From a virus: a stretch of 23,358 nucleotides of DNA. Positions 2,179 through 16,950 of this stretch are shown here, piece by piece (positions within the stretch are counted from its first letter, which is position 1; every line of letters starts with the position of its first letter). The DNA lies in IMG/VR virus record IMGVR_UViG_3300042567_000594, positions 1-23,358 of that record; one strand, 5' to 3'. The position numbers and the translations under genes were made by a program. The notes under the pieces were generated by a model. The model saw only the letters and a list, made by a program, of their open reading frames with translations. It made no database searches and was not told where the DNA came from.

Positions 2179-3108
2179 TTAACCGTAACTTGCGGCTGCT
2201 AATCCCTGCCTAGCAGTACCTACTCCAGTAGTGTCTGTAGCAACTACTCCAGTGTTCGATACTAGGTTGGTCATTGATGTCATTGATCCAGTAGATCCAT
2301 AACCAAATATAGCTGTATCAGTTCCGTATCCGGCGGCTGCTAGAAAATATCTAGCAGTGCCAACACCAGTTGTATCAGTAGCAACAACACCAGTGTTTGA
2401 TACTAGATTAGTCATTGACACATTAACAGTAGTAAGACCGTAACCAAAAATAGCTTTATCTGTACCGTAAGTTGCGGCTGCAAGAACAGTTCTTGCAGTA
2501 CCTACACCAGTGGTATCACTAGCAACAGCGCCGGTGTTTGATACTTTGTTGGTCATTGATACTCTAGTACCATCACTACCGTAACCAAATATAGCTTTAT
2601 CAGTACCATAGCCAGCGGCCGCAAGTGCTCGTCTAGCAGTGCCGACGCCTGAAGTATCTGTGGCAACGACACCGGTGTTACTTACTAAGTTGGTCATTGA
2701 TAGCTTCGTTCCGCCATCGGTTTGGCCATATCCAAAAATAGCTTTATCTGTACCATAACCAGCTGCCGCAAGGTCTATTCTAGCAGTACCTACTCCTGTT
2801 GTATCAGTAGCAACTACACCTGTATTACTTACTTTATTGGTCATTGACACACTCGCAGTAGCAAGACCGTAACCAAATATTGCTTTATCAGTTCCATAAC
2901 CCGCGGCTGCAAGATAACTCCTATCAGTACCAACACCTGTAGTATCAGTAGCAACAACACCTGTGTTTGATACTAGATTAGTCAGTGATTGTTTAACTCC
3001 CCCGGTTGCCGATCCATATCCAAATATAGCCTTTACCCCTGCCGGTGGTGCAACTATAGTAAATCCCCCACCATTTAATGTTATTCCACCTGTTATTGTT
3101 ATTGACAT
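2179..3108 (-). CDS. Six-blade Kelch-like beta-propeller protein, copy 2
   Basis: The 309-residue protein has a 25-residue Gly-rich leader (MSITITGGIT, then FTIVAPP) followed by six near-identical repeats of about 47-49 residues. Each runs KAIFGYG, variable loop, SMTNLVSNTGVV, TDTTGVGTAR, two variable residues, LAAAGYGTD. The pattern of aromatic/Gly-Tyr strand, Asn-rich turn and TAR before the next strand is that of degenerate Kelch repeats, so a closed six-blade propeller is likely. Variation is confined to the loop after FGYG and two residues after TAR, which suggests a binding face. There is no signal peptide. It lies 22 bases after its paralogue and is likely a virion adhesin or tail-associated protein. 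Function is inferred; the repeats are seen directly. Confidence 0.8.
   Translation of the reverse strand: MSITITGGITLNGGGFTIVAPPAGVKAIFGYGSATGGVKQSLTNLVSNTGVVATDTTGVGTDRSYLAAAGYGTDKAIFGYGLATASVSMTNKVSNTGVVATDTTGVGTARIDLAAAGYGTDKAIFGYGQTDGGTKLSMTNLVSNTGVVATDTSGVGTARRALAAAGYGTDKAIFGYGSDGTRVSMTNKVSNTGAVASDTTGVGTARTVLAAATYGTDKAIFGYGLTTVNVSMTNLVSNTGVVATDTTGVGTARYFLAAAGYGTDTAIFGYGSTGSMTSMTNLVSNTGVVATDTTGVGTARQGLAAASYG
2182..3033 (-). repeat. Six protein-level Kelch-like repeats (about 141-147 bp each)
   Basis: Each unit begins at a KAIFGYG or TAIFGYG strand. The DNA copies differ at many third codon positions while the encoded core stays almost constant, so the units are old and held by protein-level selection rather than freshly duplicated. 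Confidence 0.85.
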
Positions 3109-3130: not shown

Positions 3131-4060
3131 TTACCCGTAACTTGCAGCCGCTAATCCTTGTCTAGCAGTACCAACACCTGATGTATCTGTAGCAACTACA
3201 CCTGTATTTGACACAAGATTAGTTATTGATGTATCTGGTGCAGAACCATATCCAAATATAGCTTTATCTAGTCCATATCCTGCGGCTGCTAATAATCGTC
3301 TAGCAGTACCAACACCTGATGTATCAGTAGCAACTACTCCAGTGTTTGATACTAAATTGGTCATTGATACTACATTATAACCACTATTCATTCCATATCC
3401 AAATATAGCTTTATCAGTGCCATACCCGGCAGCTGCGGGATTAAATCTAGCAGTACCAACACCTGTTGTGTCACCAGCAACCACCCCTGTATTACTTACT
3501 AAGTTAGTCATTGATACTACAGTAGAACCACCACCCATTCCATATCCAAATATAGCTTTATCAGTGCCATATCCAGTTGCCGCAAGATTGTTTCTACCAG
3601 TACCAACACCTGTGGTATCACCGGCAACAACGCCTGTGTTTGATACTAGATTGGTTATTGCTGTGACTGAACCACCATTACCGTAACCAAAAATAGCCTT
3701 ATCTGTTCCATAACCGGCTGCCGCTAGTCCTTGTCTACCAGTACCAACACCTGTAGTATCTGTAGCAACTACTCCAGTGTTTGATACTAAATTGGTTATT
3801 GATGAATTTGCCACACTGTATCCATATCCAAATATAGCTTTATCTGTACCGTAACCTGCGGCAGCTAGTAGTTGTCTACCAGTGCCAACACCTGTAACAT
3901 CATTACTAACTACCCCTGTGTTTGATACTAGGTTGGTTAATGATACCGCAGCACTGGTAAATCCATAACCAAATATAGCTTTTTTCTCTACCGGTGGTGG
4001 TGCAACTATAGTAAATCCACCACCATTTATTGTTATCCCACCTGTTATTGTTATTGACAT
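3131..4060 (-). CDS. Six-blade Kelch-like beta-propeller protein, copy 1
   Basis: This paralogue of the next gene is exactly the same length (309 residues) and shares its leader (MSITITGGIT, FTIVAPP) and six-repeat plan. Variable loops after FGYG include FTSAAVS, YSVANSS, NGGSVTA, MGGGSTVVS, MNSGYNVVS and SAPDTS; the dipeptide after TAR/TGR also varies (QL, QG, NN, FN, RL, QG). Units 1-3 use TGR where the other copy mostly uses TAR, so the two genes have diverged as blocks. ATG 4060 is preceded by AAAGAG eight bases upstream, just after the stop of the sigma4/metalloprotease gene. It is probably a virion adhesin or host-recognition protein, inferred from repeat architecture and tandem duplication; there is no enzymatic motif. 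Confidence 0.8.
   Translation of the reverse strand: MSITITGGITINGGGFTIVAPPPVEKKAIFGYGFTSAAVSLTNLVSNTGVVSNDVTGVGTGRQLLAAAGYGTDKAIFGYGYSVANSSITNLVSNTGVVATDTTGVGTGRQGLAAAGYGTDKAIFGYGNGGSVTAITNLVSNTGVVAGDTTGVGTGRNNLAATGYGTDKAIFGYGMGGGSTVVSMTNLVSNTGVVAGDTTGVGTARFNPAAAGYGTDKAIFGYGMNSGYNVVSMTNLVSNTGVVATDTSGVGTARRLLAAAGYGLDKAIFGYGSAPDTSITNLVSNTGVVATDTSGVGTARQGLAAASYG
3134..3982 (-). repeat. Six protein-level Kelch-like repeats in copy 1
   Basis: The repeat plan matches 2182-3033, with synonymous divergence between units and between genes. The last unit of each gene ends in the same peptide, RQGLAAASYG. Confidence 0.85.
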
Positions 4061-4070
4061 ATGTTACTCT

Positions 4071-5024
4071 TTATTGAAAGATTTCTGGATGTGCTTTGCC
4101 AAATATCTTAATATACTTGCCAGCCATCACATCCGCTTCTGCTTCTATTGGACTACCGGGATAACTATCGCCCGGTTTAATCATATTTAATTCACCCTGA
4201 CGCACATGTGTTAATTCATGGAAAACAGTGCGTAATATATCTACTAAATTTCTATTAGCACAATACACCCATACTTCACCCGTCTCTGGATTGTGTCTAC
4301 CAGTATGATGACCTTCTTGCGCTTCATCACTATCATAACTAAACTCTATCTTTGGAGTAGTTTCTAAATTTAACTTCTTACTTGTCCAAGCAAGAAACTT
4401 CTTTACAATAGGATTGTTATTTAAATCTTCTTGTTCAGATTCAGTAATGTAGGGTTTTAATAACTCAGGATCATATCCATTATGTCTAGCGGAATCTCGC
4501 AATCGTCTTAATCCTTTAGCTTCAATTTCTCTTATTCTATTTCTAGACAAGTCAAACTTATCACCAATCTGTTGTAATGTCATATCATACCAAAATCTTA
4601 AAATTAATACTTTTCGTTGGTCATCGGTTAATCTGTTTAAGCCATTTTGAATAATTTGTTTAATACTATCATCTATTTCAGGATCTTCACCAGCTGGATC
4701 TTTATATGGCACTCGTTCTGCTCTGTTATAAATATCGTTAGGATCATTTAATGTTGGCATTTTATTATAGGATCCGCGATATGTTGTACCATCCGGGTTG
4801 TAATGTCGTCCTCCAACCTCATCTAGTTTATCTTTAATCCAACTGTCCGGAGTCTTATGATATTTTCTAACAAACAAATCATGCAATGCATCACCGGTTA
4901 TACGATGTTTCTTTGCTATCTTTTTCATTAGTTTATCAATGGTATTATAGTCGTGCTTTTCTAAGCTAGGAAGTTTCTTAGCTAGGTCAGTTGCGGCTGA
5001 TTCGTATAGTTCTATTGCTCTCAT
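4071..5024 (-). CDS. Sigma-70 region 4-like domain fused to an HExxH metalloprotease, with a capsid-targeting-like N terminus
   Basis: From ATG 5024 the protein has 317 residues. It opens MRAIELYESA, resembling the leader of T4 internal head proteins, with LYE-S as a possible cut site. A helical domain of residues about 18-68 (YNTIDKLMKKIAKKHRITGD) follows. Residues about 123-184 match sigma-70 region 4: LNRLTDDQRKVLILRF, then TLQQIGDKFDLSRNRIREIE and LRRLR. A second site, YITE-S (about 193-196), separates this from a C-terminal zinc peptidase domain: VFHELTHVRQGE (HELTH at 269-273), then IEAEADVMAGKYI, whose Glu may be the third ligand. An upstream in-frame GTG at 5042 exists, but the late promoter octamer covers it, so 5024 is preferred. 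Protease and sigma-type HTH are seen; their joint role is unknown. Confidence 0.82.
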   Translation of the reverse strand: MRAIELYESAATDLAKKLPSLEKHDYNTIDKLMKKIAKKHRITGDALHDLFVRKYHKTPDSWIKDKLDEVGGRHYNPDGTTYRGSYNKMPTLNDPNDIYNRAERVPYKDPAGEDPEIDDSIKQIIQNGLNRLTDDQRKVLILRFWYDMTLQQIGDKFDLSRNRIREIEAKGLRRLRDSARHNGYDPELLKPYITESEQEDLNNNPIVKKFLAWTSKKLNLETTPKIEFSYDSDEAQEGHHTGRHNPETGEVWVYCANRNLVDILRTVFHELTHVRQGELNMIKPGDSYPGSPIEAEADVMAGKYIKIFGKAHPEIFQ

Positions 5025-5028
5025 ATTA

Positions 5029-5037
5029 GTATTTATG
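5029..5037 (-). promoter_or_regulatory. T4-late-like promoter element CATAAATAC
   Basis: It matches the T4 late octamer TATAAATA at 7 of 8 positions. It sits only 4 bases before ATG 5024, so a transcript starting at the usual distance would be nearly leaderless. Confidence 0.6.
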
Positions 5038-5042
5038 CTCAC

Positions 5043-5121: not shown

Positions 5122-5562
5122 TTAGTTACACCAAGAAGTTTTAGCTTCTCCGTAGTATTCTCTTGCAAATCCATTCTGTATTAACATCATTCTTAAACTT
5201 TGTCCATCAAGTAATATGTCACCCAATACACGTCCACCATACTTATCCCAATCAGCAATAGCTACTTGACGTTTCTGTGCTTTAGCTATAGCATTTTTAG
5301 TGAAAGCTGAAGCAGCCTGACCACGTTGGTCTTCACTTGGACATTGGGCTCTATGACCTTTTTCAGGTGTGTCAACACCAAATACACGAATACTTAGTTC
5401 TTGTTTTAATGGTGGGGGTAAGAATGTTGCTTGAAATGCTACAGTATCTCCGTCAATAACTCTAGTGATTGGAAAATCATATATATTCATTGGCTTTTGT
5501 TTTTGTGCAAATGCTACCATAGTTGTTAATGTTAGTGTTATTGCTATTAATATTTTTTTCAT
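5122..5562 (-). CDS. Exported staphylococcal-type nuclease (thermonuclease, SNase family)
   Basis: The 146-residue protein has a typical signal peptide: MKKILIAITLTLTTMVAFA with likely cleavage after AFA (residue 19). The SNase fold follows: VIDGDTV (35-41), IRVFGVDTPE (58-67) with the catalytic-type Arg59, Asp64 and Glu67, and DKYGGRVLGDILLDG (106-120) with Arg111. SNases are calcium-dependent endonucleases that cut DNA and RNA, and the signal sequence implies action in the periplasm or outside the cell. ATG 5562 follows TAGGA closely, and the stop of the upstream gene is 2 bases away, so the pair is co-transcribed. Possible roles are destroying incoming DNA of competing phages or degrading nucleic acid at lysis; the sequence does not decide. 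Confidence 0.93.
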   Translation of the reverse strand: MKKILIAITLTLTTMVAFAQKQKPMNIYDFPITRVIDGDTVAFQATFLPPPLKQELSIRVFGVDTPEKGHRAQCPSEDQRGQAASAFTKNAIAKAQKRQVAIADWDKYGGRVLGDILLDGQSLRMMLIQNGFAREYYGEAKTSWCN

Positions 5563-5564
5563 GT

Positions 5565-5813
5565 TTATCCTACTACTGTTCTATTTTTTACTTTACTAAT
5601 CTCAACACTGATTGGTGTATTAGTTGTTTTTGCTCTAAATATCTTATCTGTCTCACGTACACCTGGCTTAAGTTCAGATGCTATAATTAAGAATCTTGCT
5701 CTATTCTTTCTCATGCCAATAAACTCTCCTACTAATACTTCGTAGTTAGGATAGTTTGGTGTCAAATCTATTTTAGGATTAGCTTGCTCAGTGATAAATT
5801 CTGTTGCTCTCAT
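5565..5813 (-). CDS. Small protein with a capsid-targeting-like leader (MRATEFITE)
   Basis: This is an 82-residue protein. The first nine residues, MRATEFITE, followed by Q, closely resemble the T4 internal-head-protein leader (of the MKTYQEFIAE type) that gp21 removes after Glu. The remainder is a small strand-rich domain: YPNYEVLVGEFIGMRKNR, FLIIASELKPG, ISVEISKVKNR. It is perhaps an OB- or SH3-like fold, but I do not recognise a named family. The start overlaps the Dps stop (TAATG), and the stop lies 2 bases before the nuclease start, giving a tight dps-orf-nuclease operon. Packaging in the head is inferred from the leader only. Confidence 0.72.
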   Translation of the reverse strand: MRATEFITEQANPKIDLTPNYPNYEVLVGEFIGMRKNRARFLIIASELKPGVRETDKIFRAKTTNTPISVEISKVKNRTVVG

Positions 5814-6253
5814 TACTCACGTTCTCTTTTTAATGTAGAACGAATGAACCATGCTTTCTTGCCGTATAAGTCTTGTAACTCAGCCATGTAGTTAGCAATA
5901 CCTTGTTGACGTTCATTTGTAGCTTCGTCAAACATAGCAACAACAAGTTCTGTCATTGTTTCACAATTTTGTAGTAACTCAACAAACATAAGTTCTGCTC
6001 TTGGAACTTTAGTTTGGTCTTGTATAATACTTAGTTCAGTATAACGTGACAAACTGCCAGGAGTATATTGACCTAGAATTCTAATATATTCAGCGATAGG
6101 ATCAATAGTAGCATTTACATCTTCATACAATGTATTAAAGAAGTCGTGATATTGTGGAAAGTTACTTCCCTCCACATTCCAATGGAAGTTTTGTGTTTTA
6201 ATAGCAAAACTTTGTGTACTAGCTAATAGTACTTTTAAATTATCTGATAACAT
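5813..6253 (-). CDS. dps: Dps-like ferritin (DNA protection protein)
   Basis: Dps proteins form dodecamers that oxidise Fe(II) with peroxide, store iron and protect DNA. The ferroxidase signature is intact with the family spacing: H24 (KTQNFHWNVEG), H36 (FPQYHDFF), D51 and E55 (IDPIAEYIR). These are the 12-, 15- and 4-residue intervals known from E. coli Dps. The 146-residue length fits the family. The N terminus is short (MLSDNLKVLL), without the Lys-rich DNA-binding tail of E. coli Dps; the C terminus ends in KRERE. An AAAGG ribosome binding site precedes ATG 6253. It lies between the multidomain proteins and the leader-bearing small gene, so it may be made late. Whether it protects phage DNA or the host is unknown. 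Confidence 0.94.
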   Translation of the reverse strand: MLSDNLKVLLASTQSFAIKTQNFHWNVEGSNFPQYHDFFNTLYEDVNATIDPIAEYIRILGQYTPGSLSRYTELSIIQDQTKVPRAELMFVELLQNCETMTELVVAMFDEATNERQQGIANYMAELQDLYGKKAWFIRSTLKRERE

Positions 6254-6255
6254 TA

Positions 6256-9200
6256 TTAGCCTTTATTTTTCTTTGTATCAACATTGATAGCTTTACCACT
6301 ACGCTCTGGATTAGGATCTTCTCTACGCTTACGTTGAGCGGCACTAGCACGACCCTTTTTACCTAGACTATGTGCTTTACTTTGTGGCAAGCATTTTGGT
6401 TTACCTTCTCCTGGTTCTCTAGCACATGGACCTTTAATCTTCCCTTTAGTATCCATGCGAACCCATTTTTCTTTATTGAACCAATCGTGCAAACTTTCGT
6501 CCGCTTGTTCAATACCTTCTAGTATAGAGCTTTCATTTTTCTTTCCACCATTGCCCCAGTTGCTTGCACCTTTATTACGACACTTAACTAATGCACCACT
6601 AGCATAGGCACTTGGCCACACTTTGTAACGGCTCTTTACTTTATAGTAACAAGCATCTTTCTTTTCGTTCATTATCATTTCACTGAACATTGGACCATTA
6701 CAATGTGGACATTTTTCTTCCGTTACACCTTGTTGCGGATCCCATCTAGCATCAGGGTTGTTTACCCAACCATCAAAGTATGCTATAGCACTACCTCGCA
6801 TATTAGGAGGTGATCTAAACATTGCGGCAAAGTCAGCGTTTGGCATTTTCTTCATCCACATTTGTTTCCATTGACCTAATGTCATTTTAGCACCACCAGT
6901 AGTAGAACCCATGTCATTGTCAGACGGCATGCCTTCCGCTATACTTTCTTTAGGCACACATTTAGGGACCATTCGTCCACCTTTATTTTTCATACCTACT
7001 TGTTTATGTGTGTCCCAACATTTTTCATCTAGTTGTTCTTCGTTAGTTTTCTTTTTATTCTTTCTACAGTCTGGATATTGTTTTCCAAACATGGTTTTCA
7101 TACCTTCTTTGTGATAACCTTTCCAACATGCTTCTTCTAAATTAGTATGGTCTACATGAGTTTCACACATACCACAATCAGGACATGTCATCTCCATAAC
7201 ATTGTCAATACTTTCATTGTGTTTTTTCTTACCAGCACAATGAGCTTTTTGACTAAAGCCTTTAGGATGACTACAGTTGATACTAGATTTATATTTTTGA
7301 CTCCAACCTTCATCAACTTCATCTGTATTGCTCATCTTACTGTGAACTTTGCCGGGTTTACCTGCAGGTATTTTACCTGTTGTACGACCAAATGCATCAG
7401 CGGGTAATGCTTTTGAAATACCTTTAAGATTTTTTGGTGCGCCACGTGGTCCACCGGGTACACTGACTGGTACATTTTTTTCAAATTCATTTGAACCTGG
7501 ATCTACAAATAGATTTCCCTTGCCATAATCTCTACCTTGTCTAGGATTATCATATTCATCACGCTCATCATGTCCTTCTTTCAAACCTGACTTTTTACGT
7601 ATATACAATCTATCCTGTAACATTGAAATAGCATTGTCTAATTTTTTATTCAATGATTGATAGTTATCTTTTGCACCATACTTAACGTGCATACTAGTAT
7701 CGGTATCATTCTGCATTGCAGGAGTTAACAAACCTTTACGTTCTATTCTATCAATTAACTTATCTAATAGTTGTTGCTTTTGTATAGCATTATTTAATTG
7801 TGATAATCTAGCTTTTAATATAGAATGCTTTTCACCAGGTTGTGCAACTGGTGTTGCTTCTGGTGAACGTATCGGTTGACTTCTCATCTTACTAGCAACA
7901 TTATTTCTAAAATCTTGTTCCCATTGAGCTAAATCATCCATACGTTTTTGTTCAATTTGTTGTTTAAGTTGTGTTAATGCTTCTAATGATTTAGATTTTA
8001 ATTGATCACCTAAGTTTTCAAATGTTGATGAATAGCGTTTATCATCCAAATCATCATGGTAACTTCTTTGTGGTGGTTTTTTTAACTCTATAGGTTTATT
8101 AGATGAACCTCTATAACCACGTTCCCATGCCGCTGCACCTGCTGCCGCACTTTTACCGTTTTTGACAAAGTGATTAATAACTTCTTGTTTACTGTTAAAT
8201 CTATTTGCTGAAACAGCTTCATTTGTTGCCATTTCGCCATCAGGAGTATGACCAAAATATGCAGCCACTTTTTGCAACTCTGCTGAATTTCTAGCGTTAA
8301 GATAATCACTTACCAAATCGTGTATTTGATTTCTTTGTTCTTGTGGAGCAGGTAATTCTATTTCACCTTCAGTAGCATCAGCAATGTACACAGCACCAGG
8401 ACTGTCCAAGAACCATATTTCATCGTCCTCGTCCCATTCCAGGCCCCATTTGTCCACAGTTGCGGTCAACACATAATTGTTGGTAGTTCCTACCACAAAC
8501 TTGTTGTTGCCCAAGTAACGTGAACTGGTGGGCTGACCATAATCTTTATTGCCACCAAATGCCCCGGCAGTAGGTGGTTTAATAGGGGAAAATTCATTTA
8601 TACCTTGACTGATACCAGACTTCTTTGTATCGTTTGCAAACTGTTTCTTAGTTGCTTTAACAATACCACTGAAACGTTTATCACCACGTTTGTAGTCACC
8701 TTCCTTATCAGCTTTACCTGCATCTAATGCCGCCGCTGTCTTGTATTGACTTAACTTCTCATTAGAGATTTCATCTAGTTGTGATTCTGGCATCAAGCCA
8801 TATTTTTTAACACGTGCATCTAAGTCAGCACGTTCTTTGGATAATTTATCTACAAGTTCGTTATTACCCATCTTAATTGCTTGTCTAAGCTTTTCCTGAA
8901 TAGCGTCAGCTAAATTGTAATAATCATCCATTTTCATTCTATTGGTGTTATCTTCTTCTATTGTTTTACCTTGACCTAGTTGCTGTAAATCACTTGTTAA
9001 TACATCTTGTGTAACAGTACCTATACCCTTAGTAATTGTAATGCGAGAATGTTTACGATCCTTACTCATAGCAACTACTTTTGATGGTTGTCCAAGATAC
9101 TTAACTGTGTCACCAGTCTGTATATTCTTAATAGATACACCACCAAGATTAACTGGCTTATCACCTGCAAAGTTACCTTGATCTCCCCATGGATCATCTA

Positions 9201-9435
9201 TACCTTCATTTGTACCAGTTGCTAATCTATCATGGTCCGCATCACGTTTTTGTTTTTGGCTTAGTTGATACATCTTTTTAGAGTATTCAATATCAGCATC
9301 AGATGTGTCATCTTCTTGTGAACGATAACTAGAACGTGATTTGCCACTACGTGCTAGAGCATCCTGATAATCCCAATCACTGTCATAGTTATGCGGACTG
9401 ACTTCGTTTAATATACCTTTAAGAATATTGCTCAT
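6256..9435 (-). CDS. 1059-residue multidomain, Cys-rich module protein with many prohead-protease-like sites
   Basis: No single family covers this protein. It opens MSNILKGILNE-V, a leader-like site. Further candidate cuts are QLDE-I (219-222), QGINE-F (277-281), LKE-G (618-620), VDE-G (707-709), IAE-G (832-834) and VTE-E (904-906). Between them are distinct modules. These include a helical segment (164-215), a 130-residue domain with WGLEWDEDDEIWFLDS (330-345), a coiled-coil-like Gln/Lys-rich stretch (475-615) and Cys-pair modules around 721-826. The zinc-knuckle motifs are CPDCGMC (751-757) and CPHC (909-912). A C-terminal Lys-rich domain, WVRMDTKGKIKGPC onward (991-1055), is of a type common in T4-like phage hypothetical proteins. 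It starts just after the upstream stop (TAATATG). It is probably a virion internal protein or polyprotein; function is not known. Confidence 0.75.
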   Translation of the reverse strand: MSNILKGILNEVSPHNYDSDWDYQDALARSGKSRSSYRSQEDDTSDADIEYSKKMYQLSQKQKRDADHDRLATGTNEGIDDPWGDQGNFAGDKPVNLGGVSIKNIQTGDTVKYLGQPSKVVAMSKDRKHSRITITKGIGTVTQDVLTSDLQQLGQGKTIEEDNTNRMKMDDYYNLADAIQEKLRQAIKMGNNELVDKLSKERADLDARVKKYGLMPESQLDEISNEKLSQYKTAAALDAGKADKEGDYKRGDKRFSGIVKATKKQFANDTKKSGISQGINEFSPIKPPTAGAFGGNKDYGQPTSSRYLGNNKFVVGTTNNYVLTATVDKWGLEWDEDDEIWFLDSPGAVYIADATEGEIELPAPQEQRNQIHDLVSDYLNARNSAELQKVAAYFGHTPDGEMATNEAVSANRFNSKQEVINHFVKNGKSAAAGAAAWERGYRGSSNKPIELKKPPQRSYHDDLDDKRYSSTFENLGDQLKSKSLEALTQLKQQIEQKRMDDLAQWEQDFRNNVASKMRSQPIRSPEATPVAQPGEKHSILKARLSQLNNAIQKQQLLDKLIDRIERKGLLTPAMQNDTDTSMHVKYGAKDNYQSLNKKLDNAISMLQDRLYIRKKSGLKEGHDERDEYDNPRQGRDYGKGNLFVDPGSNEFEKNVPVSVPGGPRGAPKNLKGISKALPADAFGRTTGKIPAGKPGKVHSKMSNTDEVDEGWSQKYKSSINCSHPKGFSQKAHCAGKKKHNESIDNVMEMTCPDCGMCETHVDHTNLEEACWKGYHKEGMKTMFGKQYPDCRKNKKKTNEEQLDEKCWDTHKQVGMKNKGGRMVPKCVPKESIAEGMPSDNDMGSTTGGAKMTLGQWKQMWMKKMPNADFAAMFRSPPNMRGSAIAYFDGWVNNPDARWDPQQGVTEEKCPHCNGPMFSEMIMNEKKDACYYKVKSRYKVWPSAYASGALVKCRNKGASNWGNGGKKNESSILEGIEQADESLHDWFNKEKWVRMDTKGKIKGPCAREPGEGKPKCLPQSKAHSLGKKGRASAAQRKRREDPNPERSGKAINVDTKKNKG
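6716..6732 (-). repeat. Dispersed 17-bp module-junction repeat (QGVTEE)
   Basis: CAAGGTGTAACGGAAGA on the minus strand; it precedes the CPHC zinc-knuckle module. Confidence 0.5.
8591..8607 (-). repeat. Dispersed 17-bp module-junction repeat (QGINEF)
   Basis: CAAGGTATAAATGAATT on the minus strand; it lies exactly at the boundary where base composition rises into the 8401-8590 cassette. Confidence 0.5.
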
Positions 9436-9436
9436 A

Positions 9437-10516
9437 TTACGCTTTCTTATTCTTGTTATTTAACATGCCACGTTTGTTAGCTGTAGCCCACGCAATGTTT
9501 TCTGCTTTGTCTTTACTCTTGCCTAATTTTTTTTCTGATTGTGCTACATGTTTAACCATGCGGTCCACTTTAGCTCCTTCATTCATACCTTGCTGACCAT
9601 AATTATCAACTATTTGTTTAACATAGAAATTATAAAAACCACGACGGCTATTGTATTCTCTATCTCCTAGAACGGTCTTTAATGCCTTGATAGCATCAGT
9701 TACTTCTGGACCACGCATTATTTTTAATGAGTCAGTAACTAGTGTATCACCTCGTTGTGAGCCTTCTGATACACCTTGTCGACCGTATTTTTCTGCTTGT
9801 TTATTGATAAAATCAAGGAGGTCATCAAAGTCAATACCTACTTCTTGCAAAGCATTATCTACCTCTGCTAGAGAATTTGGACTTGTGATATTTTTTAATG
9901 CTTCACTTGCTGGTCTAGCATCTCGTAAACAAACAAAGATTTTTGACAATGATTGGTCACCTGTTTCTTTAATTGCTTTTCTAATTGCACCTCTAACAGT
10001 GTTTAGTAATTCATTACTATGCATGTCAGCAACGCCTTCATTTACACCCTGAACTTGTTTACCTTCTAAATATTCACGTATTGTGTTTAGATAGTCATTA
10101 GCTTTAATAATCTTTTCTTGTACCCAACCATCAAGTCCTTCTTCTTCACTAACATCTTTAATCATTGAATAAACTTGTTGAGCATTCTTTGCGGCACTGA
10201 ATAAATCACTACGTGCCATCTCAACTTCGTGGTCTATACGACTTTTACCATGTGGAATAAATCCATTTTTACGACCACGGCCTTGTCCAGGAACGACAAT
10301 AACATCATCTTCTTCTAGTTGTGCTTCACTAAGTTCAGCACCTTCATTAATGCTATTAGCATATGGGGCTTTAGTCTTTTTACCCTTGAATAGTGAGCCT
10401 ACTTTCTTTCCACCATATATACTAGGATTTCCTCTACTTTGTGTGCCACCTAATGCGGTTTCTACTGTAGCGATTGAGCCTGATGTTGTATTTTCAGTGA
10501 TTTGTTTGATTTTCAT
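9437..10516 (-). CDS. 359-residue protein of five helical modules separated by QGVxEG sites, with a leader peptide
   Basis: ATG 10516 gives MKIKQITE-N, a T4-type leader. A TTG 33 bases upstream is in frame but overlaps the late promoter, so it is rejected as the start. Modules are separated by INE-G (56-59), QGVNE-G (156-161), QGVSE-G (247-252) and QQGMNE-G (308-314). Module 2 contains MARSDLFSAAKNAQQVYSMI and WVQEKIIKANDYLNTIREYL, a helical domain seen in T4-like phage virion-type proteins. The last module (KVDRMVKHVAQSEKKLGKSK, ENIAWATANKRG) is a short basic helical tail that also recurs in such phages. No catalytic motif is seen. The site between every module suggests proteolytic release of small head proteins; this is inference. 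Confidence 0.75.
   Translation of the reverse strand: MKIKQITENTTSGSIATVETALGGTQSRGNPSIYGGKKVGSLFKGKKTKAPYANSINEGAELSEAQLEEDDVIVVPGQGRGRKNGFIPHGKSRIDHEVEMARSDLFSAAKNAQQVYSMIKDVSEEEGLDGWVQEKIIKANDYLNTIREYLEGKQVQGVNEGVADMHSNELLNTVRGAIRKAIKETGDQSLSKIFVCLRDARPASEALKNITSPNSLAEVDNALQEVGIDFDDLLDFINKQAEKYGRQGVSEGSQRGDTLVTDSLKIMRGPEVTDAIKALKTVLGDREYNSRRGFYNFYVKQIVDNYGQQGMNEGAKVDRMVKHVAQSEKKLGKSKDKAENIAWATANKRGMLNNKNKKA
9576..9592 (-). repeat. Dispersed 17-bp module-junction repeat (QGMNEG)
   Basis: CAAGGTATGAATGAAGG on the minus strand, before the basic C-terminal module. Confidence 0.5.
9762..9778 (-). repeat. Dispersed 17-bp module-junction repeat (QGVSEG)
   Basis: CAAGGTGTATCAGAAGG on the minus strand, between modules 3 and 4 of the helical module protein. 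Confidence 0.5.
10035..10051 (-). repeat. Dispersed 17-bp module-junction repeat (QGVNEG)
   Basis: CAGGGTGTAAATGAAGG on the minus strand, between modules 2 and 3. Confidence 0.5.
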
Positions 10517-10538
10517 AACGGATTCCCATACTATTAGT

Positions 10539-10547
10539 GTATTTATC
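10539..10547 (-). promoter_or_regulatory. T4-late-like promoter element GATAAATAC
   Basis: It lies 22 bases upstream of ATG 10516, with GGGA between, and covers the alternative TTG start, which supports the downstream ATG. Confidence 0.6.
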
Positions 10548-10571
10548 AAAATACCATAATATGGAAACTTA

Positions 10572-12548
10572 TTAGATTTTGCCTGATGGCTTTGCTGTTG
10601 GAGGAATACCTGCTCTACTAGTATTCCAATAGAATGCTTTTGCGTTCTTTTTGATACTGTCGGGCTTAATATCTACTGTTAGTGCTGTACTAAAACGAGG
10701 GTCATTTTTCTGTTTTTCACTAGGGATATAACCTGATGCTTCCGCCACATCTTGATTTTGTTTTGCTTTTACAAATTGATTAGGTCTTACCATATCCAAT
10801 CTACGAGGATCATTCATAATGACAGGATCTTTTGTCAGTTCGCTTTTAGGATTAATCCAAAATCCAACCATTGTTACTTTTAAAGGCAATGCACCTTTTG
10901 GGACAACTACTGCTTCTTCAAATTCTCCACCTGCTTTGGCAGTAGGTTCAGCATATTTCATTTTGGCCTTTGCATTTGCTCTTGCCATTGGATCTGTGTT
11001 CTGTGACCGTGCTTCGCCATTTTTCTTAAGGTATGGATTGAATGACAACCCTTTAATGTTAGTGCTTTGACTTGTACCTAAGGTCTTAAAATTACTTTCA
11101 ATTGTATTGCGATCCAACACTAGTATTGCATCTCTGCCAATTTCGGCCATTTGTTTGGATGCATTTGATCCACTAGCATATCCCCAATCTCTAGTCACGC
11201 TTACTGTAGGCAGTTTGGTCTGAGCCGAGGTTGCTGACTGTGGACCAGTTGCTGATCGAATACTACCAGACGATAGCATTCCTTTAAGACCACTCGCACT
11301 TGTAGCGTGATACAAATAATTGCCACCCACTGCTTCATCCAAGCCTTCCGCCACACCTTGTTTTGGTCCTATATAATATGGACTGGTCAATAACTCGTTG
11401 AACCAAGGTATATCTTTATATCCTTCTATTTCTTCTGTGCGTCTAGGGTTGAAATAGAATCCCTTTAATGTTCCTTTGATTGGCATTGATCCTTTAGGGG
11501 CAACAATTACTTCTTCATATTCGTCACCTACAGTTTGTGTACCTTGACTTGTACTAAACATTTTGTAATGATTAGCAACGGTAGTACGGTCAAATACTAA
11601 TATAACTGAATTGCCATCTTTAGTTAAGTTTAAGAAATCTACAAAATCGTTTGATTCTGCATATTGTTTTGACCTAGTTGTACTAATTGTAGGGTATTGT
11701 GTTTTTGATTTAGTAGATGGTTGTGGGCGATCAGTTGCTTTAATTATACCTGTACGCAGTATACGCATTATGCCTGCAGGCATTGTAGCGTGATATAGAT
11801 AATTATCAGTAACAGCTTCATTTACATTAGAATACATACCATTCAAACTTAAATGTTTGCTATGTAATCTATCACGTAAATCATATAGTTTTGTAATATA
11901 GCCCCTGCTACGTAATGCTTTATATGCTAGATTTTCAGGACCAAACTCACCACCTTTATCTAATCCAGCTTGACGATATTGCGTAATCTTCTTCAATACT
12001 TTATTAACTTTACCCATATTATCAGAATGTAATGCTGTATCAATAATATCCAATAGTTTTATATATTTTGCTTTAGTAGCTGTTTGATCAAAGTTAGCTC
12101 TACGCTTAGTTGGCAAACGCAACCATTTTTTATCTTTCACACTATATTCACCTAAGCTAGTTACAGGTTCTGACGCATCCTGTATATATAATTCTACTGG
12201 AATTCCATTGATAGTTATATCATGTGAATCATTGTATAAATCTTTTTTAGCTTTGAAGAATTCACGGTATACGTCATCATCCGGTAAATCTTTCATATTG
12301 ACTAAGATATGTAAATCTAAATCGCTATGGTCTGTATAGCTATAGGCTGCATTACTTCCAGAAACGGTGATATCACGTACATCCAAATCATGTATACCCA
12401 TTTCCTGCAGGAAGTCTTGTGCTATAGTTTTTAATTGTAGTTCTACTTCAGGTTGTAGATGTTGCCCACGAAATAATTTACTATTGAGGTTATCGTGAAA
12501 TGTCACCGCATCTGACATTTTGAATGAATGTAATTCTTTTAAGTCCAT
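10572..12548 (-). CDS. Pol-beta-type nucleotidyltransferase fused to two ADP-ribosyltransferase-like domains, with protease-like sites between
   Basis: This 658-residue protein has four parts. Residues about 40-240 form a nucleotidyltransferase: VSGSNAAYSYTDHSDLDLHI, with GS at 64-65 and D76/D78, and probably E119 (IPVELYI) as the third acidic residue. After VNE-A (242-244) comes domain A (249-368): NYLYHAT (H253), TISTTRSKQYA (Y296), ILVFDR and EYEEVIVAPKG (E345/E346). After QGVAE-G and LDE-A (397-405) comes domain B (410-566): NYLYHAT (H414), TVSVTRDWGYA (Y457), ILVLDR and EFEEAVVVPKG (E544/E545). The H...Y...E order matches the PARP-like ART superfamily. DVAE-A (600-603) precedes a small tail (SGYIPSEKQKNDPRF). 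T4 Alt is a packaged ART, a reasonable analogue. Target and activity are unknown. Confidence 0.8.
   Translation of the reverse strand: MDLKELHSFKMSDAVTFHDNLNSKLFRGQHLQPEVELQLKTIAQDFLQEMGIHDLDVRDITVSGSNAAYSYTDHSDLDLHILVNMKDLPDDDVYREFFKAKKDLYNDSHDITINGIPVELYIQDASEPVTSLGEYSVKDKKWLRLPTKRRANFDQTATKAKYIKLLDIIDTALHSDNMGKVNKVLKKITQYRQAGLDKGGEFGPENLAYKALRSRGYITKLYDLRDRLHSKHLSLNGMYSNVNEAVTDNYLYHATMPAGIMRILRTGIIKATDRPQPSTKSKTQYPTISTTRSKQYAESNDFVDFLNLTKDGNSVILVFDRTTVANHYKMFSTSQGTQTVGDEYEEVIVAPKGSMPIKGTLKGFYFNPRRTEEIEGYKDIPWFNELLTSPYYIGPKQGVAEGLDEAVGGNYLYHATSASGLKGMLSSGSIRSATGPQSATSAQTKLPTVSVTRDWGYASGSNASKQMAEIGRDAILVLDRNTIESNFKTLGTSQSTNIKGLSFNPYLKKNGEARSQNTDPMARANAKAKMKYAEPTAKAGGEFEEAVVVPKGALPLKVTMVGFWINPKSELTKDPVIMNDPRRLDMVRPNQFVKAKQNQDVAEASGYIPSEKQKNDPRFSTALTVDIKPDSIKKNAKAFYWNTSRAGIPPTAKPSGKI
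11344..11360 (-). repeat. Dispersed 17-bp module-junction repeat (QGVAEG)
   Basis: CAAGGTGTGGCGGAAGG on the minus strand, at the join between ART-like domains A and B; the DNA just downstream in the gene is richer in G+C. Confidence 0.5.
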
Positions 12549-12593: not shown

Positions 12594-13304
12594 TCAACTC
12601 CAATACTTAGATGAATCCAGCTTATCCCAATATTGCTTGTTATTACGATTGACAAAATTCTTAACTAGATATTTAGCCATACCAAGATAGCCCATCTTCT
12701 TAAATCTACGACTATCTTGTCCAAAATGATGACGAACAATTCTGAACTTTTTAGGGCTGTACTTCCTAGACAAGAAATAGTCCTCAGATGTAGCAAAACT
12801 TTCAGGGAACCCGCCAAATTCTTCAAACTTATCTCTACGTGTCAACATAAATGCTCCAACTGCAAAGGGTGAGAAATATTTCAATGCATGGTTAATTGTA
12901 TTAAAAATAATAAATCCTAGCTTTGCTCTTGGATCCTTATCATAACATTTGATGTTTAAGCCAATAAGATCCAATGACTTGGATTCAATCAAATTAACAG
13001 CATCCTGTATAACATTATTCTTAAAGAAACGAACATCCGCGTCAATGAATAAGATATATGGTGTTGTGACTAATTTAGCACCATTGTTCTTAGCAATAGA
13101 CACAGGGCCGCCATCGATGATTTCAACATTTAATAAACTACTGTTATCCTTAATAACCTGTCTAGTATTGTCGGTAGAACAATCTGCAATGATAACTTTG
13201 GTATCACCAATATCTTGACCACGCAGTGAATCTAACAAATGATGGATGTAATTTTCCTCGTTTTTACAAGGTACTACGATAGTAATTTTATCACTTAGTT
13301 TCAT
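12594..13304 (-). CDS. GT2 family glycosyltransferase
   Basis: This is a 236-residue GT-A fold enzyme transferring sugar from a nucleotide donor. Visible are the N-terminal nucleotide-binding strand ITIVVPCKNEENYI (7-20), IIADCSTDNT (38-47), the metal-binding DAD in ILFIDADVRFF (88-90), and GGFPESFATSEDYFLSRK (164-181) with E174/D175 as the catalytic acidic pair. One moderately hydrophobic stretch (129-153) may associate with membrane. ATG 13304 follows GAAGGAAAG. It lies 72 bases after the metallophosphoesterase gene in the same direction. Together with the gene at 14292 it suggests modification of host surface glycan, phage DNA or virion protein; the acceptor cannot be inferred. Confidence 0.93.
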   Translation of the reverse strand: MKLSDKITIVVPCKNEENYIHHLLDSLRGQDIGDTKVIIADCSTDNTRQVIKDNSSLLNVEIIDGGPVSIAKNNGAKLVTTPYILFIDADVRFFKNNVIQDAVNLIESKSLDLIGLNIKCYDKDPRAKLGFIIFNTINHALKYFSPFAVGAFMLTRRDKFEEFGGFPESFATSEDYFLSRKYSPKKFRIVRHHFGQDSRRFKKMGYLGMAKYLVKNFVNRNNKQYWDKLDSSKYWS

Positions 13305-13376: not shown

Positions 13377-14219
13377 TCACACGACAACTTGTCTTGGAAC
13401 ATCAACTCCACTCTCGCCGGTATGTCTTTTGGTTCGTTCATATGAACTGCTAATATTATCAGTATCCACATTGTCCTTCTCCTTAGTCCAGGTAACTATT
13501 TCCCAACGTCCAGTATGATGTTCAACTAATGCTGTGCAGGATTCTACCCAGTCACCATCATTCATATATGTGACACCATCTATTTCTTTTATTTCAGCGT
13601 GGTGTATGTGGCCACATATAACACCATCAAAGCCACGTTTTCTACAATAGCCTGCTAGATTTTTTTCAAACTGAAACATGAAATCTATGGCTTTTTTTAC
13701 TTTGTATTTAAGGTATTTGCTAAGACTAAAGTACCCAAAACCAAAACGATGACGTATCCAATTAAATTTGCTATTAAGCGATAAAATGAAATCATAAGCT
13801 TTGTCTCCTAAAAATGATATCCACGGCGCTAACCTTGTGATGCCATCAAACAAGTCACCGTGTGTTACTAAATAGTGCTTACCATCAGCACCTATATGTT
13901 CTATTTGATTATGAATTTCTATTAGACCAAAACTAAATCCATACGGGATCATTGGTCTAAGAAACTCATCGTGATTGCCTGCTATGTAAACGACTCGGGT
14001 GCCACGCTTGGCATGCCCTAGTACACGACGAACAACATTGGTATGACTCTGTTTCCAACGCCATTTGTTTTGTTGTATGCGCCATGCATCTATTATATCT
14101 CCTACAAGATATAGTGTGTCACAACTATTATGCTTAAGAAAGTTATTAAGTTTATCTGCCTGACTATCTCTAGTACCAAGATGAACATCACTGATAAAGA
14201 TAGTGCGATACTTTTTCAT
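13377..14219 (-). CDS. Calcineurin-like metallophosphoesterase, LpxH-type (UDP-2,3-diacylglucosamine hydrolase family)
   Basis: This 280-residue protein carries all five metallophosphoesterase motifs: ISDVHLGT (D11, H13), LVGDIIDAW (D41, D44), AGNHDE (81-85), THGDLFD (H120) and GHIHHAEI (203-210). The segment DSQADKLNNFL and the helical insert FNWIRHRFGFGYFSLSKYLK (about 152-171) match the LpxH-related branch, which cleaves UDP-2,3-diacylglucosamine in lipid A synthesis in Gram-negative bacteria. ATG 14219 lies 3 bases after a late promoter element. The C-terminal 30 residues are polar and probably disordered. Substrate assignment to lipid A is family-based; a general nucleotide or phospholipid pyrophosphatase remains possible. 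Confidence 0.88.
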   Translation of the reverse strand: MKKYRTIFISDVHLGTRDSQADKLNNFLKHNSCDTLYLVGDIIDAWRIQQNKWRWKQSHTNVVRRVLGHAKRGTRVVYIAGNHDEFLRPMIPYGFSFGLIEIHNQIEHIGADGKHYLVTHGDLFDGITRLAPWISFLGDKAYDFILSLNSKFNWIRHRFGFGYFSLSKYLKYKVKKAIDFMFQFEKNLAGYCRKRGFDGVICGHIHHAEIKEIDGVTYMNDGDWVESCTALVEHHTGRWEIVTWTKEKDNVDTDNISSSYERTKRHTGESGVDVPRQVVV

Positions 14220-15299: not shown

Positions 15300-16427
15300 T
15301 TATTTTTCTTCTAAATAATCCACGCTTTCGGTAACCTTAATTTCTTTCATAACCTTATCAACAGATTTAAATGAGAAATCTGTTTGTTTAAACTGTGGAT
15401 ATTTTTGTATAGCCTTCTTTATAAACTTGTCGTATATTGAATAAGGGATATCAGTTGCAACAAGTAAAGAGGGTTTACCTGTAGTATGTCTTACATAGAT
15501 ATTAACTTTATTAGGGCGCCCAAGACGTTGAACAAAAGGTCCTTCAGCAATTTCTTCGCCTTCCGCCAAACCTTGTTTTACTGTTTTATAGGCACTCTGT
15601 AGCACAAACATATATTCTTTATCTGTTATATCTGATAATATACCTTCAACTGCTGTATTAAAAAACTCATCACCTGCTATCATATTCATAGCATGTATCA
15701 TGCCCAATTCATAGACATTTTTTTGTTTTGCTACTTGTATAGCAATTTCTAATAGTTTTCTTATTCTACGATTTCTATCATTCTCGCCGCCACCTCTGTC
15801 GTCACTCGGTGGGGCAAATTCATTTAATGATCCTTCTGACAATTCATTACCCATACTCATATCCAACATTTTAACAACATTAGCGGCTAGTTTAGGGTTC
15901 TTTTGTGTAACAGGGTATAAACTCATAACCATTGCTGTTTTACGCTTATCATTCAATGTAGGCCATGCATTACGTATTTCTGTTGCACTTGTAATGCCGG
16001 GACCAAACTCTACTGTAGGTAAGTAAGCAATATATGCTTGTTTACCAAATGGTTGTACATTCTTACCTGTCCATGGCTGAAAATATGCAGGCGTACCATC
16101 TTTCTTTGTACCACCTGGTTTAGGACTTTCATTACGATCCTTCTCACTACGAACAAAGATTAACACATCTTCTTCGGGATTATATTGATCGGTTATTTCT
16201 CTAGGTTGAAAGGGACTTTTAACTTGAACAAAGTGTTTGTCAGCTACGCCTGCAAGCTTTGCTAGTTTCTCTTTAATGGCAAAAGGAAATGGTCTTGTTT
16301 TTGTATCATTAGTGGCGGCTACATACGTATCAGCATTATTAAAGGCTGCTATAGCACTCTTATATAGTGCGGCATGTCCTGCATGAAACGGATGAAAGCC
16401 TCCTGGCATAATGACAATATTTCTCAT
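15300..16427 (-). CDS. HIGH-motif nucleotidyltransferase fused to additional modules with protease-like sites
   Basis: From ATG 16427 the protein has 375 residues. A more upstream start at 16466 would overlap the preceding gene by 38 bases and add a tail before the first strand, so the shorter form is preferred. Residues 1-155 are a cytidylyltransferase/adenylyltransferase-like domain: IVIMPGGFHPFHAGHAALY with HAGH at 15-18, AATNDTKTRPFPFAIKEK, and GITSATEIRNAW (145-155), equivalent to the ISSTxIR motif of NMN and pantetheine-phosphate adenylyltransferases. Then come NELSE-G and SLNE-F (about 194-203), a helical module (218-285), QGLAE-G and EIAE-G (285-296), and a short C-terminal domain (297-375). 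The product could be NAD or another dinucleotide; the exact reaction is not decided. Confidence 0.82.
   Translation of the reverse strand: MRNIVIMPGGFHPFHAGHAALYKSAIAAFNNADTYVAATNDTKTRPFPFAIKEKLAKLAGVADKHFVQVKSPFQPREITDQYNPEEDVLIFVRSEKDRNESPKPGGTKKDGTPAYFQPWTGKNVQPFGKQAYIAYLPTVEFGPGITSATEIRNAWPTLNDKRKTAMVMSLYPVTQKNPKLAANVVKMLDMSMGNELSEGSLNEFAPPSDDRGGGENDRNRRIRKLLEIAIQVAKQKNVYELGMIHAMNMIAGDEFFNTAVEGILSDITDKEYMFVLQSAYKTVKQGLAEGEEIAEGPFVQRLGRPNKVNIYVRHTTGKPSLLVATDIPYSIYDKFIKKAIQKYPQFKQTDFSFKSVDKVMKEIKVTESVDYLEEK
15559..15575 (-). repeat. Dispersed 17-bp module-junction repeat (QGLAEG)
   Basis: CAAGGTTTGGCGGAAGG on the minus strand; it differs by one base from the copy at 11344-11360 although the two are over 4 kb apart in different genes. 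Confidence 0.5.
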
Positions 16428-16428
16428 T

Positions 16429-16950
16429 TTATTTTCCAGGAGGATTATAAGTCTGTTCGTATTCAACTTTTGCTACACGATAATAACCAGCATCCCCGTC
16501 TTTAACTAAGTAATCACCCGGTTTCATTATCATACTTTCTCCCCAAGGAGCAGTAAAAGTAATAGGTTGTTGACCTGTGTATAACGCTACTAACCGAGGA
16601 CCTTGTTCCGGAATAACTACACCACCCATAGTACCATCGTATAGTTTAGGAAATTTAGCACCCTTAACTACATAATTTTCTCTACTAGGACCAGACATAA
16701 TAATATCGTTTGGTAACGCAACATTCTGTGTTTCTTTACCATCGCTAGTAATAGTAACAACAGGTTGTTCTTGTGCTGAAACAGTATAAGTCATTGCTGG
16801 CATTTTACCAGGAACTCCATCTTTAACAAATTTATATTGTTTTGGTTGTTTACGGGTAGGTAAAAATTTTAATTGACTTGCAACTTGACTAATATCAACT
16901 GTATTCTCGTTTATAATATCTATATATTTTCTAAAAATATCGGTACTCAT
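16429..16950 (-). CDS. Virion-type protein of unknown function with a leader-like N terminus
   Basis: This is a 173-residue protein. It opens MSTDIFRKYIDIINE-N, resembling a capsid-targeting leader with an INE cut site. The rest is strand-rich: PAMTYTVSAQEQPVVTIT, IIMSGPSRENYVVKG, RLVALYTG, then GDYLVKDGDAGYYRVAKVEY near the C terminus. The last motif resembles small phage proteins of unknown role containing a PGDYLV-type strand pair. An AAGGAA ribosome binding site precedes ATG 16950, and the stop is 1 base before the nucleotidyltransferase start. No catalytic residues are recognised. Confidence 0.7.
   Translation of the reverse strand: MSTDIFRKYIDIINENTVDISQVASQLKFLPTRKQPKQYKFVKDGVPGKMPAMTYTVSAQEQPVVTITSDGKETQNVALPNDIIMSGPSRENYVVKGAKFPKLYDGTMGGVVIPEQGPRLVALYTGQQPITFTAPWGESMIMKPGDYLVKDGDAGYYRVAKVEYEQTYNPPGK

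Follow-up and report, generated by a model that had tools for sequence, protein, structure and literature searches.

The question raised by this locus is why several neighbouring genes of one phage should string together unrelated domains through a recurring short motif that ends in a glutamate. The stretch analysed, hereafter the window, is the entire IMG/VR virus record IMGVR_UViG_3300042567_000594 (23,358 bases), which derives from a T4-superfamily jumbo phage; the genes concerned are three large open reading frames (ORFs), named ORF A, ORF B and ORF C, together with the gene at 4071 and a cytidylyltransferase-like ORF at 15300 (Table 1). We consider it probable (roughly 0.7) that these cargo genes encode head-packaged polyproteins that are cut by the prohead protease into exchangeable modules. 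In the proposed scheme, an N-terminal capsid-targeting leader, accompanied in some proteins by a copy of the capsid N-arm, would carry the string into the prohead; at head maturation a gp21-type protease would cut after the Glu of [LVIM]xE joints, and the freed modules, namely nucleotidyltransferase (NTase)-, ADP-ribosyltransferase (ART)-, GNAT-, peptidase-like and other pieces, would remain with the DNA and then enter the next host. The strings would evolve by recombination at a short DNA repeat spelling QGVAEG, and each new joint would consequently carry its own cleavage site; after exchange the DNA would drift, mainly the protease motif being kept. Whether all this amounts to a cassette system, in which one 18-bp sequence is both an in-frame joint for module swapping and an in-head cleavage site, with the capsid-arm copy acting as an encapsulation or docking signal, is in our estimate an even bet.

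The sequence-only reading of this DNA had described the joints as protease sites, which the motif fits, and had overlooked that they are conserved as repeated DNA as well. The joint is a dispersed 18-bp repeat with the core CAAGGTGTGGCGGAAGGC, spelling QGVAEG. At 133 non-redundant QG[VILM]xE[GASDE] sites, codon use departed strongly from background (GTG 76% vs 11%, GCG 87% vs 7%, and GGC for the last Gly 71% vs 18%), and in the flanks the two bases preceding the core carried 0.90 and 0.46 bits, with at most 0.35 bits per position elsewhere. An exact-repeat scan of viral contigs returned at least 120 stretches. Allowing up to 2 mismatches in 16 bases, the repeat was present in 9 of 10 records of a first set and in all 12 records picked by the repeat, with 1 to 12 copies in each repeat-bearing record, while the backwards control gave one match, in 1 of 22 records. 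Bacterial genomes, when scanned for exact copies, yielded 26 stretches, each with a single match and several of them in GC-rich genera (about 7 expected for equal base use, by our own arithmetic), and these we read as chance.

Megablast of the window against the phage collection gave no match; among viral contigs, ORF A led to 68 loci and ORF C to 44, some of them 100% matches and others lying inside large records of up to 525 kb. For joint pairs sharing only one side, nucleotide identity switched between about 0.8 and 0.3 at the edge of the element (386 and 330 pairs, or 264 and 236 after thinning, chosen by likeness of both sides), and a blastp breakpoint test free of such pair selection agreed with this. 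Over 240 non-redundant element-bearing ORFs, it placed 19.1% of 3,109 internal homology starts within 6 amino acids of a junction element (5.9% at random) and 14.0% of 2,893 internal homology ends within 3 amino acids (3.4% at random), with peaks at the element's edges. When site and domain order was compared across relatives, the ends of ORF C proved to be kept and the middle to differ. The NTase domain and the last module are constant in ORF C orthologues, and the part between them ranges from almost nothing (L080, 304 amino acids in total) to about 660 amino acids (L092, 957 in total); in the window, QGVAEG and QDVAEA enclose ART module 2, and L077, with QGVAEA at that place, lacks exactly this module. 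The Glu and Ala preceding SGYIPS were invariant in 20 aligned orthologues. Same-codon use at 83 orthologous joint pairs was higher in the core than in the flanks (G 0.88 vs 0.60; V 0.81 vs 0.67; A 0.94 vs 0.64, from 17 cells; Q 1.00 vs 0.80; E 0.96 vs 0.85), which fits recent spread with slow drift and possibly also reflects some DNA-level constraint or conversion.

The repeat is read in one frame. Among copies close to the query genes (up to 4 mismatches), 189 of 193 were open in the QGVAEG frame, and among copies at loci retrieved solely through their DNA (up to 2 mismatches), 266 of 267 lay in the QGVAEG frame of the longest ORF; this use of a single frame is not forced, since the 18-mer as written is without a stop in all six frames. 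The decay of the repeat was followed in 417 copies with 1 to 5 mismatches, and as these were gathered by likeness to the repeat and are related to each other, the changes are not independent events. Nonsynonymous and synonymous changes numbered 25 and 33 at the P1 Glu codon and 80 and 85 at the P3 Val codon (63 of the 80 leading to M, L or I), against 184 and 11 at P5 Gln, 81 and 30 at P4 Gly, 100 and 65 at P2 Ala, and 188 and 80 at P1' Gly. Judged from these letters, decayed copies mostly retain a hydrophobic P3 residue and the P1 Glu, which is the rule of T4 gp21, a protease described in the cited part of PMC9026906 as cutting after L/I-x-E.

The prohead protease, which the sequence-only reading expected to lie elsewhere in the genome, was not found in the 23-kb window record; an S77 protease (gp21-family, Pfam) was present in 6 of 14 related records, including 6 of the 7 largest, and, where the DNA repeat was the sole basis for choosing records, in 6 of 12. 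One relative of 349 kb (G001) has a capsid protein with 64-67% identity to its counterparts in the jumbo phages Vibrio phage 2.275.O, Sinorhizobium phage Phosso, PA5oct and 121Q. Its protease, scaffold and capsid genes lie side by side, and the gp22-like scaffold holds 15 [ILVM]xE[GAS] sites where 2.4 are expected, the largest excess in that genome. At P3, scaffolds from four of six loci (two yielded none, probably because one strand was read) favoured L (27 observed vs 3.5 expected), V (16 vs 2.4), I (10 vs 1.7) and M (5 vs 1.0), with Q up twofold (5 vs 2.1) and A at expectation (4 vs 3.1). Scaffold-like ORFs with 9-16 such sites, picked at a threshold of 9 and without shuffles, occur in the six S77-positive repeat-bearing records. 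The joint motif thus appears to match the specificity of a gp21-type protease, the earlier description of the sites as prohead-protease-type agreeing both with P3 use in related scaffolds and with the decay of junction copies. The records in which no S77 gene was found include three large ones, G010 (316 kb), G018 (262 kb) and G019 (343 kb), though relatives of similar size have one; these are either fragments or genomes with a different protease.

All five cargo genes of the window contain sites, as had been stated, while their count is significant in two. With the pattern [ILVM]xE[GASFND] and expectations from 300 within-protein shuffles, ORF B has 8 sites (2.45 expected; none of the 300 shuffles as high), the cytidylyltransferase-like ORF 6 (2.06; P 0.01), ORF A 8 (4.24; P 0.06, borderline), ORF C 4 (2.36; P 0.18) and the 4071 gene 2 (1.73; P 0.54). 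The form QG[VILM]xE occurs 7 times, spread over four of the five; the 4071 gene is without QGVxEG, its internal site E201 separating sigma region 4 from the peptidase-like half. All four ORF C sites followed by G, A, S, F, N or D stand at module joints. Support for boundary placement comes from the relatives, where the joining of unrelated domains at the sites was borne out both by the blastp breakpoints and by what precedes the modules: for 15 module types, [ILVM]xE lay within 12 amino acids upstream in 146 of 177 distinct upstream contexts (0.12-0.32 expected), and the distance from site to module was fixed for most types. All fifteen patterns were picked after the sequences had been seen, and at least five are circular, having been taken from sequences after an element (HADQ.., MP[AS]DND, NTP.PVVVIQD, GAETSWSND and SENN); the ten others give 125 of 154 contexts. 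The total includes the pattern EKCPHC (3 of 23), whose first residue is the site Glu itself, the CPHC module having a site within 12 amino acids in 21 of 26. SGYIPS is directly preceded by [ILVM]xE-x in 27 of 27 upstream contexts. A 746-amino-acid protein at 317215-319455 of G001 (in L131) has 13 [ILVM]xE[GAS] sites (2.6 expected) and the leader LDQLNE/A (a slash marks the predicted cut), with no repeat found inside it at up to 2 mismatches; it may be another string or a core protein.

The ends of the proteins, and the signals inside them, bear on head targeting and on cleavage. Starts resembling a capsid-targeting sequence (CTS) were seen in ORF A, ORF B, the 4071 gene and an ORF of 82 amino acids, and a tight leader pattern was found in 12 of 380 G001 ORFs (4.5 expected). 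The N-terminus of ORF B, MKIKQITE/NTTSGSIATV (ITE/NTTSGSIATVETALGG), resembles LLAE/SSAGTTTAGNIATLN of the G001 capsid protein. The motif T[TS][AS]Gx[IV]A[TS][VLA], derived from these same sequences, occurs in 32 distinct contexts, or 50 hits when redundant ones are counted, where shuffling predicts 0.33. Five of the contexts are capsid proteins; of the 27 that are not, about 23 lie near an N-terminus and about 15 are ORF B orthologues. Capsid proteins with a similar arm are encoded in six repeat-bearing records. In the cultured cyanophage S-CREM2 the capsid arm is of another sequence, and a stretch like it is present in the virion protein gp160 of this phage, a likeness that rests on direct comparison, as tblastn with the arm peptide (21 records; 20 listed places annotated as capsid or head, one as 'hypothetical protein') missed gp160. 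In S-CREM2 (L255) gp160 and gp145, and in ORF B, the stretch that resembles the N-arm of the mature major capsid protein in the respective lineage directly follows the predicted leader cut site. The arm copy may be an encapsulation or protease-docking signal.

Element-bearing ORFs contain 11 RRxF[LVIM] motifs, ten of them continuing into a hydrophobic stretch as in twin-arginine translocation (Tat) signals, and in 10 of 10 the RR stands 4-9 residues after the Glu of [VIL]xE (background for 3-9 residues, 0.133), seven of these sites being the element and three other triplets read from the sequences; a wider set holds 20 RRGFL motifs, 19 of them preceded by a site at most 12 residues upstream. 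In one relative (L096), a C-terminus matching the 82-amino-acid protein continues via VLE/D into a Tat-signal module. Tat signals function near an N-terminus, so that the predicted cutting at the preceding sites would make them functional. Sec-like hydrophobic stretches gave a negative result, with 2 of 23 within 25 amino acids after an element against 13% expected. Selection at the joints, fit to the protease and placement of the Tat signals together point to cleavage of the strings.

Evidence from virions concerns homologues. The S-CREM2 virion proteome, in the cited part of PMC10665884, includes gp160 (7 unique peptides), gp156 (6) and the cytidylyltransferase gp154 (3). ORF A matches gp160 at 77% identity over 48 residues and at 43% in two further stretches, and residues 18-235 of ORF C match gp156 at 37%. 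The leader of gp154 is MKNFSSFLTE/A; blastp gave no match between gp154 and the window cytidylyltransferase, their likeness being in family name only, and a cytidylyltransferase is also reported from S-SM1 virions (PMC3037559, in part). Parts of ORF A and of ORF C thus have homologues among S-CREM2 virion proteins, in keeping with the head packaging that the sequence-only reading had proposed; the strings themselves are predicted to be loaded, and the peptide lists are silent on whether joints are cut. Delivery into the host is proposed from these homologues and by analogy; retention in the head, injection, and recombination as the means by which the repeat has spread are inferences. One PA5oct protein of 395 amino acids flagged by mass spectrometry (156341-157528, L268) has 8 [ILVM]xE[GASN] sites where 1.9 are expected. 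That disparate domains share one phage polypeptide was confirmed by Pfam, PHROG and the ORF C orthologues. In a survey of 59 ORFs, taken from the 240 element-bearing ones for having the most elements at a length below 1300 amino acids, Pfam found 16 families, each in one to five members, including GNAT families, Tat signals, dCMP deaminase, ParB-like nuclease, 5'-nucleotidase, methyltransferase and domains of unknown function; the PHROG families matched are mostly without known function, and the best 25 of 34 include cytidylyltransferase (five members), virion structural protein (three) and T7-type kinase (one).

Several results weigh against packaging and cleavage. S77 was not found in 8 of the 14 related and 6 of the 12 repeat-chosen records, which are possibly fragments, and at up to 2 mismatches the repeat was not found in 6 of 7 named relatives, PA5oct having one match. 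Three of the five window genes lack individual site enrichment, and ORF C is without a leader cut site. The expectation that sites would be commoner at boundaries than inside domains agrees with the peaks of homology breakpoints at the elements; in ORF C, four (E5, E49, E134 and E469) of eight [ILVM]xE triplets counted with any next residue fall within modules. Sites are in excess between elements too (663 vs 380 expected; other G001 proteins, 251 vs 218); these may be further joints, though some may lie in folded parts. A loose leader pattern did not predict the electrospray tandem mass spectrometry (ESI-MS/MS) flag of PA5oct proteins (15 of 93 flagged vs 47 of 294 other ORFs), and a tighter pattern, set afterwards, predicted it weakly (6 of 93 vs 4 of 294, p 0.015), the flags being notes in the GenBank record that we took as virion data. 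AlphaFold2 models gave no domain map, either for ORF C, where the mean pLDDT was 45 and the NTase part alone was usable, or for the ART-like module (pLDDT 43).

Two rival explanations survive best, and each strikes us as unlikely. The strings could be core, scaffold-like proteins cut like T4 gp22, whose pieces exit the head and are not delivered; the largest site excess in G001 is indeed that of its gp22-like scaffold, and multiply cut core proteins of T4 mostly leave the head according to the cited part of PMC9026906. Against this, some modules match enzymes or Tat-signal proteins, and gp160, which has some of the same modules, is present in S-CREM2 virions. No better placed is the view that they are uncut polyvalent proteins, injected whole, with QGVAEG as a flexible linker and recombination joint. 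Such proteins of phages and plasmids are known, some being transferred uncut (PMC5512222, as cited in part), but at our joints P3 and P1 are held while Q, the first G, A and the last G are much freer, joints that lack the DNA element retain [ILVM]xE, and Tat signals are positioned after sites. It is improbable to a further degree that the joints are cut by some other protease, whether an embedded HExxH peptidase or a host enzyme acting after injection: a peptidase-like part with HELTH closes the 4071 gene, and peptidases of this sort are known from polyvalent proteins (PMC5512222, same part), yet the motif equals that of the related scaffolds and of T4 gp21, and no peptidase domain was found in ORFs A, B and C by Pfam at a cut-off of E 0.1. 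Least credible is a selfish or functional DNA repeat (a recombination site or homing-endonuclease target) with an incidental QGVAEG reading, which codon-level uniformity across unrelated joints, breakpoints at the repeat edges and the raised same-codon use of orthologous joints would favour, and which is likely true in part, the joint being a DNA joint though not solely that, but a single copy in 267 lies outside the one frame, the protein motif outlasts the DNA sequence, and joints without the repeat keep the motif.

Head-packaged polyproteins of this kind would have partial parallels. RNA-virus polyproteins give several products from one ORF, with cleavage sites at the boundaries, as proposed here; protease, virus and purpose differ, and the modules here would be exchangeable cargo. 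With the T4 internal proteins and Alt the strings would have in common a leader ending in a gp21-type site, an S77 protease, head cargo and ART-like pieces, whereas T4 cargo is described in the cited part of PMC9026906 as single end-trimmed proteins and here there are many modules per ORF, with joints that are both predicted sites and copies of one DNA repeat. In polyvalent proteins (Iyer et al. 2017, PMC5512222), too, a single phage polypeptide combines disparate enzymatic domains and is predicted to be injected, and those authors likened such proteins to polyproteins; in the cited sections, release, where proposed, is through embedded peptidases and a common repeated joint is not mentioned, whereas here such a joint is present and release would be at predicted prohead-protease sites. 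The ejection proteins of phiKZ and SPN3US, with the proteases gp175 and gp245 (PMC9026906, PMC10052503, both in part), resemble the proposed strings in that many head proteins are cut after Glu by a gp21-related protease, with several cuts per propeptide; there, processing strips off the propeptides so that a single mature protein remains, and the SPN3US motif is A-x-E. Further parallels are gp160 of S-CREM2 and gp114 of the cyanophage S-CAM22, with some of the same modules in series and [ILVM]xE at several joints; no 18-bp repeat was found at up to 2 mismatches in these two genomes. We place the strings in neither the T4 internal protein/Alt nor the polyvalent class, as they would work like the former and look like the latter. 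The sequence-only reading knew of no description of such a delivery system; the new part is the string with its shared joint and not the components, since S77 proteases cutting head cargo (PMC9026906) and multi-domain injected proteins (PMC5512222) are each described in the parts cited; the literature searched yielded no description of such a string with this joint.

If packaging and cleavage hold, a few genes would suffice for a phage to fill its capsid with many separate effectors, and exchange at a short repeat would renew the set, which would help to explain the varied early-infection weaponry of jumbo phages. [LVIM]xE joints, QGVAEG and capsid-arm copies would then form a rule for finding candidate injected effectors in metagenomes. 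The strings would also offer a natural model for packaging several proteins in one phage head, and the head cargo of uncultured jumbo phages becomes directly testable.

Table 1. Cargo genes and joints of the window (a slash marks the predicted cut; mismatches are to the 18-mer)
Feature	Position	Strand	Description
ORF A	6256..9435	-	1059 aa; CTS-like start MSNILKGILNE/V; eight recognisable module starts after leader
ORF A module starts			ISNEKL..YKTAA, WSQKYK, CWKGY, CWDTH, MPSDND, CPHC, YKVWPSAYAS, HDWF; from PHROG matches, site list and stretches common with S-CREM2 gp160
ORF B	9437..10549	-	370 aa from TTG; three QGxxEG joints; likely true start MKIKQITE at 10516
ORF C	10572..12548	-	658 aa; nucleotidyltransferase-like domain 1-235; constant C-terminal module SGYIPSE..
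ORF C ART-like modules	about 245-396, about 406-600 of ORF C		ORF C assigned from PHROG 36119, 20-orthologue alignment, junction comparison and S-CREM2 gp156
Cytidylyltransferase-like ORF	15300..16466	-	388 aa from TTG; alternative start MRNIVIMPGG at 16427; Pfam PF01467; QGLAEG joint plus more sites in C-terminal half
4071 gene	4071..5042	-	323 aa; CTS-like MRAIELYE/SAA, sigma-70 region 4 (PF04545), ITE/SEQ (E201), C-terminal HELTH part, peptidase-like as judged on HExxH letters alone
Small protein	5565..5813	-	82 aa; CTS-like start MRATEFITE/Q
Junction element	11343..11360	-	exact 18-mer, QGVAE/G, between two ART-like modules of ORF C
Junction element	10737..10754	-	3 mismatches, QDVAE/A, before SGYIPSE
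Junction element	15558..15575	-	1 mismatch, QGLAE/G
Junction element	9761..9778	-	3 mismatches, QGVSE/G
Junction element	6715..6732	-	4 mismatches, QGVTE/E, before CPHC
Junction element	6931..6948	-	4 mismatches, ESIAE/G, before MPSDND
Decayed junction element	10034..10051	-	5 mismatches, QGVNE/G
Decayed junction element	9575..9592	-	5 mismatches, QGMNE/G
QGINE/F joint	8590..8607	-	protein motif only (8 mismatches)

The ART label of the ORF C modules leans on a weak Pfam match of the ART-like module (E 0.093) and on residue patterns that we take to be characteristic; a PDB profile search with this module returned three SPT5 chains at E 0.64-1.1, which were judged irrelevant. Foldseek with the ORF C model gave nothing at E 0.001 or below, the top match being the nucleotidyltransferase CdnE (3.8e-3) with aminoglycoside nucleotidyltransferases close behind, which hints at an NTase fold for the N-terminal domain.

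Inside the cargo cluster of the window also lie a ferritin/Dps-like gene (5813-6253) and a staphylococcal-nuclease-like gene with a signal-peptide-like start (5122-5562). Two adjacent, similar proteins of 309 amino acids (2179-3108 and 3131-4060) contain repeats of the type KAIFGYG..TNLVSNTGVVATDTTGVGTAR and may be a virion adhesin or propeller. Judged by eye from the sequence, the window further encodes a glycosyltransferase (12594-13304), a UDP-diacylglucosamine-hydrolase-like phosphoesterase (13377-14219), a TilS-like protein (1527-2123), a ClpA-like ATPase (18248-20524) and a DnaJ-like protein (20549-21349), and PA5oct too has annotated ClpA, DnaJ and TilS genes.

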